A stretch of DNA of 64,000 nt from Beggiatoa alba B18LD (GTDB taxonomy: Bacteria > Pseudomonadota > Gammaproteobacteria > Beggiatoales > Beggiatoaceae), in assembly GCF_000245015.1 (NCBI RefSeq), contig NZ_JH600070.1:575594-639593 (forward strand), read 5' to 3'. Positions within the stretch are counted from its first letter, which is position 1. Every line of letters starts with the position of its first letter. Under the pieces are notes generated by a model that had not been told where the DNA came from, ran no database searches, and saw nothing but the letters and a program-made list of their open reading frames with translations. Below are positions 13,075-55,928 of this stretch, in pieces. Position numbers and translations under genes: made by a program.

Positions 13075-16000
13075 TTATCGTGGCATCATCCAAACCCCTG
13101 CTAATTGTTCTAAGGGTTTCGGTTCTGCCACATGATAGCCTTGCGCAAAATCGACACCGACTTCACGCAGTTTATTCAAAACGGTTTCACTTTCTACAAA
13201 TTCAGCAATCGTTTTAAATCCCATCACGTGGGCAATGTGATTAATTGAGGCGACTAACGCATAGTCAATTTCTTCTTTTGCAATGTCTTTCACAAATGCA
13301 CCATCAATTTTTAAAAAATCGACATGCAGTTCTTTGAAATAGGAAAAGGAGGATAAACCGCGCCCAAAATCATCAACAGAAAAGTAACAGCCTAATGCAT
13401 GTAAGGCATGAATAAATTGTGCTGATTTAGCAATATTGGCGATTAAAACGGATTCAACAACCTCAAAACAAAGGATATGCGGGGGAATTTGGTGCTTACG
13501 AATCAATTCTGCAACCAGTTTTAAAAAATCTTCGTCACCGACAGCTGTTGCGGAAAGATTGACCATACAGAGTTTTAATGGATATTTTCCACCACGCAAA
13601 TAGTCGCCAACCCATGCGCAAATATTGCGAATAACCCAGCGGTCAATTAAGGGCATGATATTGTAGCGTTCTGCCGCTGGGATAAATGCTCCTGGGGGAA
13701 TAAGGCGGTTGTGTTGGTCTAGCAGGCTGACAAATATTTCATAATAACCTTCAGTACCTTCCGCAGTGTGTAACGGGCAAATAGATTGATATAGCAGGCG
13801 CAAGCGGTCAGTTTGTAGCGCGTGTTCAATTCGATGTAACCATTGCACAGGTTCAGGCTGTTCTTTGCCTTCTAAATCGCTGGGGCGGAAAATATGGATA
13901 CAGTTGCGCCCTGAATCTTTAGCGATATAACAGGCGGTATCTGCGGCGGCTTGTATGCTAGCAAGTGTTTCTCCACAGCCTTTTATCTCTACTAAGCCGA
14001 TGCTAACGCCAATACGGAAAGTGTAGGTATTCCAAACAAAGCGGAAGCGGTGAACCGATTCGCGGAGTTGTTCGGCAATGTTTTCGGCTTGCTCAACAGC
14101 GCAGTTTTGGAACAAGAGACCAAATTCATCCCCCCCTAAACGCGCTAAGGTATCCGTACCGCGCACACGGGTTTTAAATAATGCTGTAATTTGGCGGAGT
14201 AACTCATCACCAGCAACATGTCCACAGGTATCATTCACAACTTTAAAGTTATCTAAGTCTAAATAACATAAAACATGGCGAGCGCGTTCTTGTTCAGAAT
14301 TTTCAAGGAGATGTTGTAAGCGATATTCAAATTCTGTGCGATTAACTAAGCCAGTTAATGCATCATGTTTGGCTTGATAAGACAGTTGTTGTGCTAATTT
14401 ACGGGTTTTTGTCACATCGTGAAAAACAACCACAATACCCATTACACTGCCTTGTTGGTTACGAATCGGTGCAACGGAATCCTCTAAAGCGATTTCGTGC
14501 CCATCGCGTCGAATTAAAACAGCATGGTTAGGTTTATGCGTATTTGGATTATGTTGATAAGCGCGATGCATGGGTGATAACAACACATCGCGTGTGACTT
14601 CATCAATTAAATAATAGACTTCATGAATTGGCTGTCCAACGGCATCAGCTCGTATCCAACCTGTCAATGATTCGGCTGTCGGGTTTAAATAAGCAATTGA
14701 ACCTGTTGCATTGGTTGTAATCACCGCATCACCAATGGAGGCGAGTGTTGTTTGTGCTAATTCTTTTTCCGCAAATAATTGAGCTTCCATCTGCTTACGC
14801 TCGGTAATATCACGAATCAAGGTCGTGTACATCACATCGCGTTGTAACCAACTTTGTGTAATGGTTAACTCTACCATCAGCGTTGTTGTATCTTGCCGTT
14901 TAACCTCAATTTCCCGTTTGATACCAACAGGTAAGGTCATTTCATAAGCAGCGGATAAAAAATGCGGGTCTGCTTGTTGCCATAAAACGGTGACAGGATG
15001 CCCAATGATAGAAGTTGCTGAATAACCGAATAATTGCTCTGCCCCCGCGCTAAAGCTGGTGATAACCCCTTGACGATTAAAGGTAATAATGCCATCTCGA
15101 ATATCATGAATGATAGCCCGCAATTGCATAGAAGCTTTATCCAAAGCGGTCATGACCCGATTATATTGGCGGGCAATTTGTCCGACTTCAGTAAACGGCT
15201 CTACAGGCACATAATTACCGATATACCCATTTTTCTCATGGGTTTGCATTATCGTTAATAATTCGACTAAATCTGTTTTTGCCCCATGCTCCGCCAGATT
15301 TAACCCTTGTTCTTCTGCTTCTAAACTGACCCGTAACGGGAAAATTCGATTTAACGTCATGAGGAAAAAATAGGCACACCCAAATGCCCACACCGCACAG
15401 ACTAAAATCCCCAACAGTTGTACATTAATCTGCTCTAAACGGCTTAAACCCGTATTTAAAATACTCAAATCCCCAAAAAAACCAACGGCTAATGTACCCC
15501 AAATGCCCGCCGCTAGATGGGTAGGAACAGCTCCAACCGCATCATCAATTTTTAAATACAAGAGTAATTGATTCGCAAAGCAAAAAATTAAACCACCGAT
15601 ACCGCCAATTAATATCGCTTGTGATACAGTAATTGCATGACAACCCGCTGTAATGGCGACTAATCCTGCAAGCATTCCATTGATTAAGTAACCAACCTCC
15701 GCATAACCATAACGATACCAACCCCATGCAGAAGCCGTTAATGCCCCTGCAACTCCTCCCAGCAAAGTATTGACAATAATCGCGGGCACGGCATGATTTA
15801 GCGCAAGCGTACTTCCCCCATTAAAACCAAACCATCCAAATAACAGCAGACAAACACCTAGCATTGAGAGGGGTAAATTCGAACCGTGAATTTGCCTTAC
15901 TGTTCGTCCTTGTGCAAAACGCCCTGTACGTGCACCAATAATGAGAAGTGCGGCAAGAGAAACCCAGCCACCAACACTGTGCACCACACTAGAGCCTGCA

Positions 16001-16482
16001 AAGTCTACAAAACCACGTACTTGTAACCAGCCTTGTGTCGCGGTTAACGCCCCACCCCACGCCCAATGACCAAATAAAGGATAAATTAATCCAGAGGTAA
16101 ACGCTGTTGCAAACACATAGGCTTTTAACTGAAACCGCTCGGCAACTGCACCTGATAAAATCGTGGTTGCTGTTGCACAGAACATGACTTCAAACACGAA
16201 AAATGCTACAACGCCCGCTGTTTCTGCTTGCACAGGCAATAAAAAATAACTCTGTCCAAACCAACCTTGAAAACTGATACCAAACATCAGCGCGAAACCA
16301 AACGCCCAGTACAGCATGACCGCGATGGAAAAATCGACTAAGTTTTTAAAGGCAACATTAATGGCGTTTTTACTACGTGTAAACCCAGACTCTAAACATA
16401 AAAACCCTGCCTGCATCAGGAAGACTAAAAAAGCACTGATACAAATCCATAACACATTAATATCAATATTAATATTTTCCAC
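13075..16482 (-). CDS. Ammonium transporter fused to PAS-PAS-GGDEF-EAL (cyclic-di-GMP signalling)
   Basis: A 1135-residue fusion. Residues 1-400 are a complete Amt channel: SGFTRSKNAINVAFKNL, both pore His residues (DFAGSSVVHSVGG and GAVPTHLAAGIWG) and about eleven membrane helices. A linker and two PAS domains follow (about 465-575 and 590-710), then a GGDEF domain with intact RLGGDEF and an RxxD inhibitory site (RGTD) five residues before it. The C-terminal EAL-type domain has EIF in place of EAL, but DDFGRGLSSF, DFLKID and IAEFVES are retained, so phosphodiesterase activity is possible. It probably couples ammonium transport or availability to c-di-GMP. It lies 42 bases after trkH on the same strand. 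No glnK is adjacent. Confidence 0.95.
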   Translation of the reverse strand: MENINIDINVLWICISAFLVFLMQAGFLCLESGFTRSKNAINVAFKNLVDFSIAVMLYWAFGFALMFGISFQGWFGQSYFLLPVQAETAGVVAFFVFEVMFCATATTILSGAVAERFQLKAYVFATAFTSGLIYPLFGHWAWGGALTATQGWLQVRGFVDFAGSSVVHSVGGWVSLAALLIIGARTGRFAQGRTVRQIHGSNLPLSMLGVCLLLFGWFGFNGGSTLALNHAVPAIIVNTLLGGVAGALTASAWGWYRYGYAEVGYLINGMLAGLVAITAGCHAITVSQAILIGGIGGLIFCFANQLLLYLKIDDAVGAVPTHLAAGIWGTLAVGFFGDLSILNTGLSRLEQINVQLLGILVCAVWAFGCAYFFLMTLNRIFPLRVSLEAEEQGLNLAEHGAKTDLVELLTIMQTHEKNGYIGNYVPVEPFTEVGQIARQYNRVMTALDKASMQLRAIIHDIRDGIITFNRQGVITSFSAGAEQLFGYSATSIIGHPVTVLWQQADPHFLSAAYEMTLPVGIKREIEVKRQDTTTLMVELTITQSWLQRDVMYTTLIRDITERKQMEAQLFAEKELAQTTLASIGDAVITTNATGSIAYLNPTAESLTGWIRADAVGQPIHEVYYLIDEVTRDVLLSPMHRAYQHNPNTHKPNHAVLIRRDGHEIALEDSVAPIRNQQGSVMGIVVVFHDVTKTRKLAQQLSYQAKHDALTGLVNRTEFEYRLQHLLENSEQERARHVLCYLDLDNFKVVNDTCGHVAGDELLRQITALFKTRVRGTDTLARLGGDEFGLLFQNCAVEQAENIAEQLRESVHRFRFVWNTYTFRIGVSIGLVEIKGCGETLASIQAAADTACYIAKDSGRNCIHIFRPSDLEGKEQPEPVQWLHRIEHALQTDRLRLLYQSICPLHTAEGTEGYYEIFVSLLDQHNRLIPPGAFIPAAERYNIMPLIDRWVIRNICAWVGDYLRGGKYPLKLCMVNLSATAVGDEDFLKLVAELIRKHQIPPHILCFEVVESVLIANIAKSAQFIHALHALGCYFSVDDFGRGLSSFSYFKELHVDFLKIDGAFVKDIAKEEIDYALVASINHIAHVMGFKTIAEFVESETVLNKLREVGVDFAQGYHVAEPKPLEQLAGVWMMPR

Positions 16483-16524: not shown

Positions 16525-17970
16525 TTATCTACGCCAAAAAGCAGGGGTGATTAACACTAACAGGGGAAAAATCTCTAGCCGTCCAAGTAGCATAGAAAAG
16601 CTTAGAATCCATAATCCTGTATCACTAATGCCTGAAAAACTATAGACAACTGTCCCAAGTCCAGGACCTGCCATTGTAAAACAGGTCGCCACACCAGAAA
16701 ACGCGCTGACCATATCCACGCCTGTTGCCATCAATAAAAAGGAGAGAATCACATAACTGGCAATAAACCAAATCGTAAATTCCCAAACGGTTTGTAAAAC
16801 GTTATCAGGAACAGATTTACCCTCTATTTTTATGCTAAATACCGCATTAGGATGAATCATCCGCATTAATCCACGCATGGCTTGCTTATATAAAATGATT
16901 AAACGAATAACCCGATATCCCCCAGCCGTTGAGCCGACACAACCACCAATAAAAGCACTAAGAATAATCAAAGCAGGCACAAATAACGGCCATTGACTAA
17001 AATCGTCTGTTAAAAAACCTGTTGTCGTCATGACCGAAATTAATTGAAAACTGGCGTAGCGTAAACTGGTTAAAAAGTCAGGATAAATACCATTTAGCCA
17101 CAGCGTAAGCGTAATAATGCCTACAAGAGCAATCACTAAGTATAAAAACACGCGGGTTTGCACATCTCGCCAATAACGTCCTAAATCAAACTGTGCCCAC
17201 GACATATAATGCAATGTAAAGCTCAAGCTCCCCAATAGCATGAAAACAATAGCAATTACCTCAATTAAAACACTATTAAAATACTTCAAACTGTCATCAT
17301 GCGTTGAAAATCCCCCTGTAGAAACGGTGGAATAGCTATGTGCAATTGCATCAAATAAGGACATGCCCGCCGCCCAAAATGCCAAGGTACAGGCAACAGT
17401 GATAACTAAATAAGTTAATAAAAATCGCCAAACGGTATGCTGTAAACGGGGCGTGATTTTGTCATCATGCATTGGGCCTGGCGTTTCTGCACGATAAAGC
17501 TGCATCCCCCCAATCCCTAACATGGGTAACACCGCGACCGCGAAAACGATAACCCCTAAACCGCCAATCCATTGCAATTGTTGCCGATAATACAAAATAG
17601 AGGGTGGCAGATGATCTAAACCAGACATCACCGTCGCGCCTGTTGTTGTAAATCCTGAAACCGCCTCAAAGACAGATTGCGCTAAATTTAAATGAGGGGT
17701 AATTAAGAACGGCACGGCACTGACCACGCTCAATACAATCCAGAATAAAGAGGTCACAATAAATCCGTCATGTAAATACAATTCTTTTTTCACATGGCGA
17801 GCGGGTAACCAACTGACTAATCCCAACGCAAACATGACTAAAAAAGAAATAGTAAACGCATGTAAATTATTATCTTTATACCAGAGGGACACTAACATCG
17901 GCGGAATCAAGGTAACGCTAAATGACATTAGCAATAAGCCAAGAATGCGTTGAATAAGGGAATATTGCAT
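16525..17970 (-). CDS. trkH: Trk-type potassium uptake channel subunit
   Basis: A 481-residue inner-membrane protein. VFEAVSGFTTTGATVMSGLD is the first pore loop and selectivity filter; SYSTVSTGGFSTHDDSLKYF, SVMTTTGFLTDDFSQWP and ATCFTMAGPGLGTV form the others; AFIGGCVGSTAGGYRVIRL lies in the conserved gating region. TrkH needs the cytosolic NAD-binding TrkA ring, which is not in the window. The C-terminus LLVLITPAFWRR is the usual end. It lies upstream of the ammonium-transporter fusion on the same strand, 42 bases apart, so a joint transcript is plausible. Confidence 0.95.
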   Translation of the reverse strand: MQYSLIQRILGLLLMSFSVTLIPPMLVSLWYKDNNLHAFTISFLVMFALGLVSWLPARHVKKELYLHDGFIVTSLFWIVLSVVSAVPFLITPHLNLAQSVFEAVSGFTTTGATVMSGLDHLPPSILYYRQQLQWIGGLGVIVFAVAVLPMLGIGGMQLYRAETPGPMHDDKITPRLQHTVWRFLLTYLVITVACTLAFWAAGMSLFDAIAHSYSTVSTGGFSTHDDSLKYFNSVLIEVIAIVFMLLGSLSFTLHYMSWAQFDLGRYWRDVQTRVFLYLVIALVGIITLTLWLNGIYPDFLTSLRYASFQLISVMTTTGFLTDDFSQWPLFVPALIILSAFIGGCVGSTAGGYRVIRLIILYKQAMRGLMRMIHPNAVFSIKIEGKSVPDNVLQTVWEFTIWFIASYVILSFLLMATGVDMVSAFSGVATCFTMAGPGLGTVVYSFSGISDTGLWILSFSMLLGRLEIFPLLVLITPAFWRR

Positions 17971-18107
17971 GTGATATCAATAAGCTCAGTGGTAAGAGAC
18001 GAAAGGGTTTATATCGTTACAGCGTGCTTACAATGACAATAACGACGGCTCGCAAGAGAATGTCAGCCAGTACTTCTATTGTTATCAATCATGAAAAAAC
18101 GGACATA
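17971..18107. other. Intergenic region upstream of trkH
   Basis: The first part of a 388-base gap. It should hold the trkH promoter (minus strand), but I see no clear consensus boxes. No coding sequence is supported here. The 73-bp repeat follows at 18108, and the remaining 178 bases before the 18.4-kb gene also show nothing definite. Confidence 0.4.
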
Positions 18108-18180
18108 TAGTAAACGCACTATAAAACGATGCGAAGGACTGGCAGTCCTAAATTTAAATCACTTTATGATACGTTTACTA
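18108..18180. mobile_element. 73-bp MITE-like element, copy 1
   Basis: Terminal inverted repeats TAGTAAACG and CGTTTACTA, exactly 73 bp, flanked on both sides by TA (18106-18107 and 18181-18182). The centre holds AGGACTGGCAGTCCT, itself a palindrome, and the arms ACTATAAAACGATGCGA / TCACTTTATGATACG pair imperfectly. TA duplication plus short inverted ends suggests mobilisation by an IS630/Tc1-mariner-type transposase; none is encoded in the window. Confidence 0.88.
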
Positions 18181-18358
18181 TATATAAATCTCGTATCGTC
18201 ATGAGCACATAAAGGGTGAACCGTTGTTAAAGTGAAGCGAGTATAACGAGCAGAGTATGATTATGGTAGTGCTCTGCAACATTGAAATTGCAGGACAAAA
18301 AAACACCTTGTTTTAATCGCGTAACCTGCAAAGAATCAACAAATTAATTTATTGATAA

Positions 18359-18694
18359 ATGAGTATAAATATGAATGTATGGGCATTAAACAAAACGGAA
18401 GATATAAAAAAACTGCTGATTATGCTGACCAGTCAATTGGGAAAAGAAGCGTTTGAACTCAGTGAACGTTGGCAAGATGATTTATCGGCGGTAGGACTTT
18501 GCAAACGGGGAGACCCCAGTTTAATCGCCTATATTTATACACATGGTCAAGAAACAGACCGTTACGGCATTCATTTGTTATATCCCGACTTACCCGATGT
18601 CGATACACGGGGGATTATTGATGCAAAAGAAAATGTTAAATTTGAACAATTAGTTGATTTAATTATCATGCACTTAGAAATTGTTCCTTCATAA
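18359..18694 (+). CDS. Hypothetical protein, 111 residues
   Basis: I do not recognise a family. The protein is acidic with a regular alpha/beta look: an N-terminal helix (WALNKTEDIKKLLIMLTSQL), strands around LIAYIYTH and IHLLYPDL, and a C-terminal helix (FEQLVDLIIMHLEIV). It has no signal peptide or membrane segment. The ATG at 18359 is used; one at 18371 is equally possible, and no strong ribosome site distinguishes them. It stands alone between a 73-bp element and a composite repeat. Confidence 0.65.
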   Translation: MSINMNVWALNKTEDIKKLLIMLTSQLGKEAFELSERWQDDLSAVGLCKRGDPSLIAYIYTHGQETDRYGIHLLYPDLPDVDTRGIIDAKENVKFEQLVDLIIMHLEIVPS

Positions 18695-26830: not shown

Positions 26831-29734
26831 ATGAAATTAGTCAAACGACAAACCACGAGTACCGCAACCGTTAGCGGTCACACCTCCCCACTAAATGCCA
26901 TAGACCGTCGCACGTTTTTACAACGTTCGGGGGTTGCTGTTGGTGGACTTGCCGCACTCACAAGCCTTGCTCCCAGCTTAATGAAAAAAGCAGAAGCTGG
27001 CGAACGTGAAAAAAACTATTCAACCGCTGACACTAAAACCGTGCGTTCTATCTGTACGCACTGTTCTGTCGGCTGTGGCGTGATTGCAGAAGTGCAAAAT
27101 GGCGTATGGACGGGGCAAGAACCCGCTTTTGACCATCCTTTCAATTTAGGCGCACATTGTGCGAAAGGCGCATCAGTACGAGAACATGGACACGGCGACC
27201 ACCGCTTAAAATATCCGATGAAACTTGTCGCTGGTAAATGGCAACGCCTTTCATGGGAACAAGCGATTAACGAAGTCGGAGACAAACTGCTCACCATTCG
27301 AGAAACCGCTAGCCCTGACTCCGTTTACTGGCTCGGCTCTGCCAAATTTAGCAACGAACAAGCCTACTTATTCCGCAAATTTGCCGCGCTATGGGGCACG
27401 AATAACGTCGACCATCAAGCCCGTATTTGCCACTCCACCACCGTTGCAGGGGTTGCTAATACATGGGGTTATGGCGCGATGACTAACTCCTACAATGACA
27501 TGCACAATGCAAAAGCAGTCATGATTATTGGGGGAAATCCTGCCGAAGCCCATCCCGTCTCTTTACAACATATTTTCCGAGCGAAAGAACGCGGGGCAAA
27601 ACTCATTGTTATCGACCCCCGCTTTACCCGCACGGCCGCCCATGCTGACCACTATGTCCGCCTTCGCCCTGGTACGGATGTACCATTTATTTGGGGTACG
27701 TTATGGCATATTTTCCAAAATGGTTGGGAAGATAAAGACTATATTCATCAACGGGTTTACGGTTTAGAAGACGTTCGTAAAGAAGTTGAAAAATGGACAC
27801 CCGCAGAAGTCGAGCGTGTGACAGGCGTTCAAGAAGCCGACGTGAAAAAAGTCGCGCAACTGATGGCAGAAAATCGCCCTGGTACGTTTGTCTGGTGCAT
27901 GGGTGGCACACAACACACTGTCGGCAATAACAATACCCGTGCTTACTGCATTTTCCAGCTTGTGCTTGGCAACATGGGCGTGTCTGGTGGCGGTACAAAT
28001 ATTTTCCGTGGACACGATAACGTACAAGGCGCGACCGATTTCGGCTTAGATACAACCACCCTACCTGGTTACTACGGGTTAGCTGATGGCGCGTGGAAAC
28101 ACTGGGCGCGGGTTTGGAGCGTGGACTACGAATGGCTAAAATCTCGCTTCGATAGCAATAGCTACGAAAAAGAGAAAGTCAAAGACGAGATGAAACCCGT
28201 TAGCCCAATGAGCACCAAAGGGATACCCGTTTCACGCTGGATTGATGGCGTTTTAGAAGCCAAAGAAAATATTGCGCAAAAAGACAATATTCGCGCGATG
28301 ATTTACTGGGGACACGCACCTAATAGCCAAACCCGTGGCACAGAAATGAAAAAAGCCATGGAAAAGCTAGATTTATTAGTCGTTATCGACCCCTATCCCA
28401 CTGCAACAGCCGTGATGCAAGACCGTACTGACAATATGTATCTCTTGCCCGCTTGCACCCAATTTGAAACCTACGGGTCTGTCACCGCCTCCAATCGCTC
28501 CGTACAATGGCGCGACAAAATCATCGACCCCTTATTCGAATCCAAGCCCGACCACACCTTAATGTATCTGTTTGCGAAAAAATTCGGCTTTGCAGAACAA
28601 CTGGTTAAAAATATCAAAGTCAATGGCAACGAACCTTTAATTGAAGATATTGTCCGTGAATACAATCGTGGTATGTGGACCATTGGCTACACAGGACAAA
28701 GCCCAGAACGCTTAAAAGCCCATCAACAACATTGGGGCGATTTTGACACCACCACACTACGCGCTGAAGGTGGCACGCTAAACGGCGAAACCTACGGCTT
28801 GCCTTGGCCTTGCTGGGGAACACCAGAATTAAAACACCCTGGAACACATATTCTTTATGACCCTAGCCAACACGTGATGCAAGGCGGGGGCAACTTCCGC
28901 GCAAACTGGGGCGTAGAACGTAATGGCGAAACCCTCTTGTCTGAAGGCAGTTACCCCAAAGGCGCGGAAATTCAAGATGGACATCCCGAATTTGATGCCG
29001 AATTATTAAAAAAACTCGGCTGGTGGGACGATTTAACCGCCGAAGAAAAAGCCGAAGCTGATGGCAAAAACTGGAAAACAGACTTATCAGGTGGGATTCA
29101 ACGCGCTGTCTTAAAACGCGGTTGCTTACCCTTTGGCAATGGCAAAGCCCGCTGTGTCGTGTGGACATTCCCAGACCCCGTACCGATTCACCGCGAACCC
29201 TTATACGCGCCCGACCGCGAATTAGCCGCCAAATACCCCACCTATGAGGATAGAAAATCCTACTACCGTTTACCCACTCGTTATCAATCGATACAAGCGA
29301 AAGATTATTCTAAAGATTTCCCGCTCATCATGACCAGCGGACGCTTAGTCGAATATGAAGGCGGTGGCGATGAAACCCGCTCTAATCCATGGCTTGCCGA
29401 ATTACAACAAGACATGTTTATCGAAATTAATCCCAAAGATGCAAACGACGCAGGAATTAAAAACGGTGGCATGGTTTGGGTCAGCTCTCCTGAAGGCGGA
29501 AAAATCAGAGTAAAAGCCATGATTACCCGTCGCGTTGCTGCGGGCGTGGTCTTTATGCCCTTCCACTTTGCGGGCTATTTCCAAGGCGAAAACCGTCGCG
29601 CTAAATACCCTGAAGGCTCTGCGCCATTGGTCTCTGGTGAATCTTGCAACATTATCTTTACCTACGGTTACGACTCCGTCACCGCCATGCAAGAAACCAA
29701 AGTATCTCTATGTAAAATCACTGCCGCCGCGTAA
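26831..29734 (+). CDS. fdhA: Formate dehydrogenase, catalytic alpha subunit (Mo/W-bisMGD, Cys type)
   Basis: A 967-residue molybdopterin oxidoreductase oxidising formate to CO2. The TAT leader is DRRTFLQRSGVAVGGLAALT (from about residue 25). The Fe4S4 ligands are in CTHCSVGC and GAHCAKGA. The active-site residue is Cys in QARICHSTTVAGVANTWGYG, in place of the selenocysteine of FdnG. GAMTNSYNDMHNAKAVMIIG and GGNPAEAHPVSLQHI follow, with the C-terminal GLVEYEGGG-like segment GRLVEYEGGGDETRSNPWLA binding the dinucleotide. GAGGGG precedes the ATG. The TAT leader places it on the periplasmic side with the beta and gamma subunits encoded next. Confidence 0.96.
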   Translation: MKLVKRQTTSTATVSGHTSPLNAIDRRTFLQRSGVAVGGLAALTSLAPSLMKKAEAGEREKNYSTADTKTVRSICTHCSVGCGVIAEVQNGVWTGQEPAFDHPFNLGAHCAKGASVREHGHGDHRLKYPMKLVAGKWQRLSWEQAINEVGDKLLTIRETASPDSVYWLGSAKFSNEQAYLFRKFAALWGTNNVDHQARICHSTTVAGVANTWGYGAMTNSYNDMHNAKAVMIIGGNPAEAHPVSLQHIFRAKERGAKLIVIDPRFTRTAAHADHYVRLRPGTDVPFIWGTLWHIFQNGWEDKDYIHQRVYGLEDVRKEVEKWTPAEVERVTGVQEADVKKVAQLMAENRPGTFVWCMGGTQHTVGNNNTRAYCIFQLVLGNMGVSGGGTNIFRGHDNVQGATDFGLDTTTLPGYYGLADGAWKHWARVWSVDYEWLKSRFDSNSYEKEKVKDEMKPVSPMSTKGIPVSRWIDGVLEAKENIAQKDNIRAMIYWGHAPNSQTRGTEMKKAMEKLDLLVVIDPYPTATAVMQDRTDNMYLLPACTQFETYGSVTASNRSVQWRDKIIDPLFESKPDHTLMYLFAKKFGFAEQLVKNIKVNGNEPLIEDIVREYNRGMWTIGYTGQSPERLKAHQQHWGDFDTTTLRAEGGTLNGETYGLPWPCWGTPELKHPGTHILYDPSQHVMQGGGNFRANWGVERNGETLLSEGSYPKGAEIQDGHPEFDAELLKKLGWWDDLTAEEKAEADGKNWKTDLSGGIQRAVLKRGCLPFGNGKARCVVWTFPDPVPIHREPLYAPDRELAAKYPTYEDRKSYYRLPTRYQSIQAKDYSKDFPLIMTSGRLVEYEGGGDETRSNPWLAELQQDMFIEINPKDANDAGIKNGGMVWVSSPEGGKIRVKAMITRRVAAGVVFMPFHFAGYFQGENRRAKYPEGSAPLVSGESCNIIFTYGYDSVTAMQETKVSLCKITAAA

Positions 29735-54616: not shown

Positions 54617-54626
54617 GGGAATGCTC

Positions 54627-55928
54627 ATGACTATGAATCGTAGAACGTTTTTAGCGTCTCTCTCTACCAGTGTTGCTGGTTTGGCAATTGCCAGTTGTGC
54701 CAGTGCAGATAATAAGCACAGTGCGCAAAGTGGGAAAAAAGTGGTGGTTGTCGGTGGGGGGTTTGCAGGAGCAACGGCTGCTAAATATTTGCGGAAGTTT
54801 GACCCTAGTTTAAACGTGACTTTAATTGATGAAAGTCCGCAATATGTCACTTGTCCCGCAAGTAATTGGGTGATTGGTGGTTTTCGTGAGCTTCCAACTA
54901 TCACATGGGATAGAGGTGCATTACAGCGTAAATATGGGGTTAATTTAGTTCAAGACACGGTTGTCGACATTGAACCAACTGCGAAATATGTAAAAACCAA
55001 GCAGGGGGAAAAATTCGCGTATGACCGTTTAATTGTCGCGGCAGGTATTTCTATTAAATGGAATGCGTTAACGGGATATGATGAAGCTGCCGCAGAGTTA
55101 TTGCCCCATGCGTGGAAAGCGGGAGCGCAAACAACGCTGTTACGCAAGCAATTGGAAGCCTTACCTGATGGCGGTAGAGTCTTTATGGTTTGTCCTGCTA
55201 ATCCATTCCGCTGTCCCCCCGGTCCTTATGAACGGGCGAGTTTGATTGCGCATTATTTGAAAACCCACAAGCCTAAATCTAAATTAGTACTATTTGATGC
55301 AAAAGATAATTTCTCTAAACAAGGATTGTTTGAGAAAGCATGGACTGATTTATATGGTTATGGGACGGCAAAGAGTTTAATCGAGTGGGTGCCTGCGTCT
55401 AAAGATGGGAAAATCGTAGAGGTTGACGCGAAGAATAAAACTATCATCAGCGAATTCGGTGAGAAGCATAAAGGCGATGTGATTAATGTGATTCCGCCTC
55501 AACAAGCAGGGATTATTGCGCAAACAGCGGGTTTAGTGAATGAAACAGGTTGGAGTCCCGTTGACCATCAAACATGGGAATCGAAAAAACATCCTTTTAT
55601 TCATGTTATCGGTGATGCAAGTATTGCGGGGGCAATGCCAAAATCAGGCTCTTCGGCGAATTCACAAGCGAAGTTTTGCGCGGCAGCAGTCATTGCTTTA
55701 TTGAATGACATAACTCCGCCAAAACCAAACTGGTTGAATATCTGCTATAGCCTTGTTAATCCTGAGTATGCGATTTCTGTAACATCAGTTTATGAATTAG
55801 ACGCAGAAAAGAAAGTCGCGGAGATTAAAGCATCGGCTGGGGTGAGTAAGCCTGATAGTGATAAACAGCTTGAGGCGTTATATACAGAAAATTGGTATAA
55901 AAATATTATTCAAGATTCGTTTTTATAA
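54627..55928 (+). CDS. fccB: Flavocytochrome c sulfide dehydrogenase, FAD subunit
   Basis: A 433-residue periplasmic flavoprotein oxidising sulfide to sulfur and passing electrons to FccA. A TAT-type leader NRRTFLASLSTSVAGLAIAS is visible; the FAD-binding GxGxxG is VVVVGGGFAGATAAKYLRKF. Conserved Cys-containing motifs of the FCSD/SQR group are YVTCPASNWVIGG, MVCPANPFRCPPGPYERASL (Cys of the redox disulfide) and SQAKFCAAAVI. The C-terminal NICYSLVNPEYAISVTSVYE is the usual end. Start at 54627 is preferred (AGGGG eight bases before) over 54621. This is the clearest sulfur-oxidation marker in the window. Confidence 0.94.
   Translation: MTMNRRTFLASLSTSVAGLAIASCASADNKHSAQSGKKVVVVGGGFAGATAAKYLRKFDPSLNVTLIDESPQYVTCPASNWVIGGFRELPTITWDRGALQRKYGVNLVQDTVVDIEPTAKYVKTKQGEKFAYDRLIVAAGISIKWNALTGYDEAAAELLPHAWKAGAQTTLLRKQLEALPDGGRVFMVCPANPFRCPPGPYERASLIAHYLKTHKPKSKLVLFDAKDNFSKQGLFEKAWTDLYGYGTAKSLIEWVPASKDGKIVEVDAKNKTIISEFGEKHKGDVINVIPPQQAGIIAQTAGLVNETGWSPVDHQTWESKKHPFIHVIGDASIAGAMPKSGSSANSQAKFCAAAVIALLNDITPPKPNWLNICYSLVNPEYAISVTSVYELDAEKKVAEIKASAGVSKPDSDKQLEALYTENWYKNIIQDSFL

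Follow-up and report, generated by a model that had tools for sequence, protein, structure and literature searches.

A gene of Beggiatoa alba B18LD encodes what is, in good likelihood, a membrane receptor for ammonium with a built-in two-way enzyme for c-di-GMP, a signal for bacterial attachment; the balance of this enzyme would be set by ammonium outside the cell. Its channel-like Amt half has probably been turned from a channel into a receptor, and we infer that it binds ammonium, no longer transports it and signals through the linker that follows. The receptor reading is favoured because the residues of a known ammonium site are present, because Sd-Amt1 and 6EU6 are the nearest structures, because the Amt half falls on a branch of fused Amts in the tree, and because uptake is covered by a separate glnK-amt-amt cluster. 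The first-pass annotation of the 64,000-nucleotide stretch analysed (the window) had suggested a transporter or transceptor that sets c-di-GMP according to ammonium; the coupling is well supported by homology, through the site shared with Sd-Amt1, and it is the transporter that gives way to a receptor. Receptor Amts with kinase and cyclase outputs are already published, and the window protein is a widespread but little-described version of this receptor type with solved structures. A partial literature search found no paper on a bifunctional PAS–PAS–GGDEF–EAL receptor Amt.

Table 1. Features of the fused gene and its neighbour, with positions in the window
Feature	Position	Strand	Residues	Basis and remarks
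Whole gene, Amt–HAMP-like–PAS–PAS–GGDEF–EAL protein	13075..16482	(-)	1135 aa	GTG start at 16482, stop at 13075
Amt domain, probable receptor type	15277..16452	(-)	11-402	Pfam PF00909 Ammonium_transp, E 1.9e-110; structures, site table, tree
HAMP-like linker	15109..15273	(-)	about 404-458	Signature FTEVGQIARQYN at 430-441; family HAMP matches; model
PAS domain 1	14773..15126	(-)	about 453-570	PF13188 453-509, sensory_box 453-569
PAS domain 2	14413..14751	(-)	578-690	PF00989
GGDEF domain	13903..14373	(-)	704-860	PF00990, 3.7e-39; I-site RGTD 774-777, GGDEF 783-787
EAL domain, EIF variant	13120..13833	(-)	884-1121	PF00563, 1.4e-59; motif table
TrkH potassium uptake subunit	16525..17970	(-)		PF02386; 42 bp upstream, same direction

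One gene in one frame

The fusion of an Amt channel to a PAS–PAS–GGDEF–EAL tail was placed correctly by the first-pass annotation. Translation gives a single minus-strand frame without an internal stop, in which the Pfam domains are found. A frameshift or assembly error between the Amt and PAS parts was looked for and none was seen: a full-length ortholog with 80% identity is present in a genome of the same genus (locus L005), and the fusion recurs in 39 of 80 relatives. An artefactual join is thus ruled out, since both genomes of the genus and many relatives have the gene in a single frame. Between the two same-genus genes every domain is under purifying selection (pN 0.085-0.18 against pS 0.57-0.75). 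A plasmid search for the gene found no full-length match.

Relation to Sd-Amt1 and the proposed mechanism

Sd-Amt1 of Shewanella denitrificans (structures 8QJ3, 8QJ4 and 8QPF) is reportedly a receptor in which an Amt has a diguanylate cyclase output (said to be the work of Pfluger et al., Sci Adv, 2024). It resembles the window protein in having a receptor-type Amt, a probably homologous linker and a GGDEF domain, the two Amt parts being about 48-49% identical. It differs in having neither PAS nor EAL domains and in its length of 644-661 aa. By sequence and by fold the solved structures closest to the Amt half are those of Sd-Amt1 (8QJ4 and 8QJ3), then 6EU6, with AmtB and Af-Amt1 behind; the fit to the ON and OFF states of Sd-Amt1 is 1.7 Å rmsd with a TM of 0.95. 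The PDB titles of these entries are 'Receptor Sd-Amt1 (ON-state)' for 8QJ4, the OFF-state for 8QJ3, and 'Sensor Amt Protein' for 6EU6.

In the proposed mechanism, NH4+ from outside would enter the selectivity filter of the Amt half and be retained at an intramembrane site (Q24, E31, N47, D50, T107 and S110) rather than passed through. The Amt C-terminus would then shift, and this change would pass through the HAMP-like linker and both PAS domains to the RbdA-type GGDEF–EAL pair. Altered packing of the GGDEF–EAL dimer would finally change the balance of c-di-GMP synthesis against hydrolysis.

The GGDEF–EAL half and the direction of the response

Both the GGDEF motif and the I-site (R774-x-x-D777) are intact in the motif table, in agreement with the first reading of the gene. 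The EAL domain has EIF in place of EAL with its catalytic set complete, namely E915 (of EIF), N975, E1007, E1010, D1037, D1038, K1058, E1094 and Q1114. The substitution had therefore been described accurately, although the possible loss of activity attached to it does not follow, given that full set. Of the three letters the E alone takes part in catalysis, and the other two differ among relatives (EIL, EVL, EMF, EIF or EAL), so EIF is ordinary variation rather than a defect, and its reading as the sign of a dead EAL domain is rejected. In two relatives (L006 and L062) the EAL domain is without some of its catalytic residues while the GGDEF domain is intact.

The nearest match to the C-terminal half is RbdA (PA0861) of Pseudomonas aeruginosa (5XGB), with about 46% identity over 560 residues. 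RbdA (PDB 5XGB and 8PPS) has the same PAS–GGDEF–EAL order and the same catalytic residues, but its sensor is periplasmic and is not an Amt (PMC11372557). Its phosphodiesterase is restrained by its own cyclase domain and stimulated by GTP (PMC11372557).

The ammonium-bound state may favour cyclase output, with the EAL domain as the opposing default activity. The lean towards a rise in c-di-GMP is slight, and is made because of the analogy with the ON and OFF states of Sd-Amt1 and because GGDEF outlasts EAL in L006 and L062. The same receptor could act with the opposite sign, ammonium switching the EAL domain on, the GGDEF domain serving as a GTP-binding regulator only, and c-di-GMP falling, which would favour dispersal or movement. 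Such control is plausible, if on the unlikely side. It would agree with the closeness to RbdA, a cyclase-restrained and GTP-stimulated phosphodiesterase, and with the presence of every EAL catalytic residue. Set against it are the intact I-site and GGDEF motif, the better conservation of the GGDEF domain, as seen in the two relatives with a degenerate EAL domain, and the fact that the related Sd-Amt1 carries GGDEF only.

In a tree of effector domains, 32 of the 33 Amt-fused effectors of the RbdA type cluster apart from RbdA-like proteins free of Amt (SH-aLRT 94; this and the Amt tree are quick trees with support by SH-aLRT only). One Amt-free sequence falls within the Amt-fused group; in Vreelandella maris (L084) it comes immediately after a broken fused gene, on its downstream side, and probably represents the second piece of that gene. 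The L084 gene is apparently split into two frames, one with the Amt–PAS part and one with the GGDEF–EAL part. A second type of GGDEF–EAL effector, in Marinomonas, Methylophaga and Alteromonadaceae, has its own branch in both the Amt and the effector trees. This suggests that a receptor Amt was joined to GGDEF–EAL a second time, independently.

Binding and transport in the Amt half

The pore histidines H168 and H322, both of which had been noticed at the outset, are confirmed by the site table, together with D160 and W142. The twin histidines occur in 89 of 89 fused Amts and in all receptors and transporters checked, and being common to both kinds they are not diagnostic; they cannot be taken as proof of transport. 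Neither are the pore-plugging residues F27, L30 and F34 a mark of lost transport, as F27 and L30 are also found in unfused Amts.

Ks-Amt5 of Ca. Kuenenia stuttgartiensis (6EU6) holds two ammonium ions on Q24, E31, N47, D50, T51, T109 and T112, and binds ammonium without translocating it (PMC5764959). The window protein aligns to this site with Q24, E31, N47, D50, F51, T107 and S110. Six of the seven ligands are kept, one of them as a conservative change of Thr (T112) to Ser; T107 matches T109, and T51 is replaced by Phe as in Sd-Amt1, with which all seven positions are identical. The output of Ks-Amt5 is unlike that of the window protein, being a histidine kinase described as having neither HAMP nor PAS (PMC5764959).

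The residues Q-E-N-D-T are kept in 86 of the 89 fused Amts. The set is absent from E. coli AmtB and from the glnK-linked uptake Amts of the same genome, which have the fold, the twin histidines and D160 in common with the window Amt but are unfused and distant in the tree. Some unfused Amts do share it: when 399 genomes of the phylum were searched for the pattern, five with Q-E-N-D turned up among 24 intact frames, and with L115 and L116 these make seven sampled unfused Amts with a Ks-Amt5-type site (L115, L116, L125, L130, L131, L137 and L138). The site residues are therefore insufficient alone for calling a receptor, and their value as proof of receptor function is weakened. In a quick tree a single branch (SH-aLRT 98) splits 107 fused Amt domains from 14 unfused ones, including the seven with the site residues.

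Assimilatory Amt transporters are stand-alone channels, usually linked to glnK. The window Amt has their twin histidines and aspartate, but it is fused and glnK lies elsewhere. The Amt half might still conduct, as a true transceptor in which c-di-GMP output follows flux through the pore and does not depend on a dead-end site being occupied. This is unlikely. In its favour, the protein retains the twin histidines, D160 and every filter residue, and the unfused Amts that share the site residues are presumably transporters; however, Ks-Amt5, likewise a fused Amt, binds without translocating (PMC5764959), and uptake Amts with glnK exist elsewhere in the genome, with no glnK beside the fused gene.

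Linker and PAS domains

Residues 398-456 follow a pattern conserved across different outputs, with the consensus GDLSLRVPVEPFTEVGQIAxxYNxVMxALE. Pfam HAMP is matched by 15 of 19 linkers of the family (best E 2.5e-6), the linker of the window protein itself having no match, and the linker profile aligns to the linker of Sd-Amt1 (E 0.0075). An AlphaFold2 model of modest confidence here places linker helices at 404-418 and 432-458, joined by a connector; its pTM of 0.47 reflects low confidence between domains.

PAS domains often act as sensors. That the Amt half is a membrane anchor only, with activity set by the PAS domains in response to redox, oxygen or another ligand, is very improbable: two PAS domains do stand between Amt and enzyme, but many genera retain the site residues and the pore histidines, the Amt half is under purifying selection like the remainder, and the same Amt–linker module is found with other outputs, among them kinases, an adenylate/guanylate cyclase and phosphatases, as well as a chemoreceptor domain in a relative.

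Distribution of the fused family

The best 80 matches to the Amt–linker part in named genomes are all fused Amts, and 39 of these 80 have GGDEF and EAL-type tails. The fused proteins sampled, in the Amt tree too, were gathered by searching with the window protein and do not amount to an unbiased census. Carriers of Amt–GGDEF–EAL fusions include Halomonas, Vreelandella, Salinicola, Kushneria, Ectothiorhodospira, Thioalkalivibrio, Azoarcus, Marinobacter, Marinomonas, Methylophaga, Paraglaciecola and others. Pfam matches to Amt, PAS, GGDEF and EAL were all obtained in 37 of 37 fusion proteins, that of the window included.

Other outputs joined to the module are histidine kinases, an adenylate/guanylate cyclase (L040), SpoIIE-type phosphatases (L045 and L109) and a HisKA_2 kinase (L052). 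In a genome of the same family as Beggiatoa (G014), an Amt with all the ammonium-site residues is fused to a methyl-accepting chemotaxis domain (L028, 1576-3801, minus strand); from its sequence this protein is a candidate ammonium chemoreceptor.

Genomic surroundings

The gene immediately upstream, trkH, is a probable operon partner of the receptor gene, the gap of 42 bp leaving little space for a promoter. The same arrangement is found at L005, where trkH (15-1460) lies about 40 bp upstream and its product has 86% identity. TrkH was not found adjoining the gene in relatives outside the genus; the pairing is kept in the same genus only, and TrkH as a general partner is ruled out. The position of trkH beside an ammonium receptor may reflect the interplay of K+ and NH4+. 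No match to a sigma-54 promoter was found upstream in 17971-18360, with counts over the window at chance, and scans for sigma-70 promoters and terminators were at chance level.

The glnK-amt-amt cluster for uptake lies apart, at C2:3.207 Mb. The genome holds 29 GGDEF genes, and the fused protein is therefore one of many c-di-GMP inputs. The large exopolysaccharide locus that had been described as next to the fused gene is real (Wzz/tyrosine kinase, Poly_export, Bac_transf, Wzy_C and glycosyltransferase, at about 33-44 kb in the window), but it starts about 14 kb or more away. The link proposed by the first-pass annotation to this locus, or to gliding, has presence in one window as its sole support and is speculative. 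Elsewhere in the window are a flavocytochrome c sulfide dehydrogenase flavoprotein (54621-55928), consistent with a sulfur-oxidising host, and a large molybdopterin oxidoreductase of 967 aa (26831-29734).

Significance

A wider reading is offered tentatively, at somewhat less than even confidence. It holds that a receptor driving both the making and the breaking of c-di-GMP in one chain is widespread, that the PAS domains may add a second input, such as redox, to be weighed against ammonium, and that the receptor module would have been joined to GGDEF–EAL at least twice independently.

Few ammonium receptors are proven; to these the window protein and its relatives would add a branch that is bifunctional, and the receptor Amt with its linker would be a plug-in sensor for many outputs. 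With the ammonium site known, the link from ammonium to c-di-GMP can be probed directly through point mutants of culturable bacteria, for example Marinomonas or Halomonas relatives.
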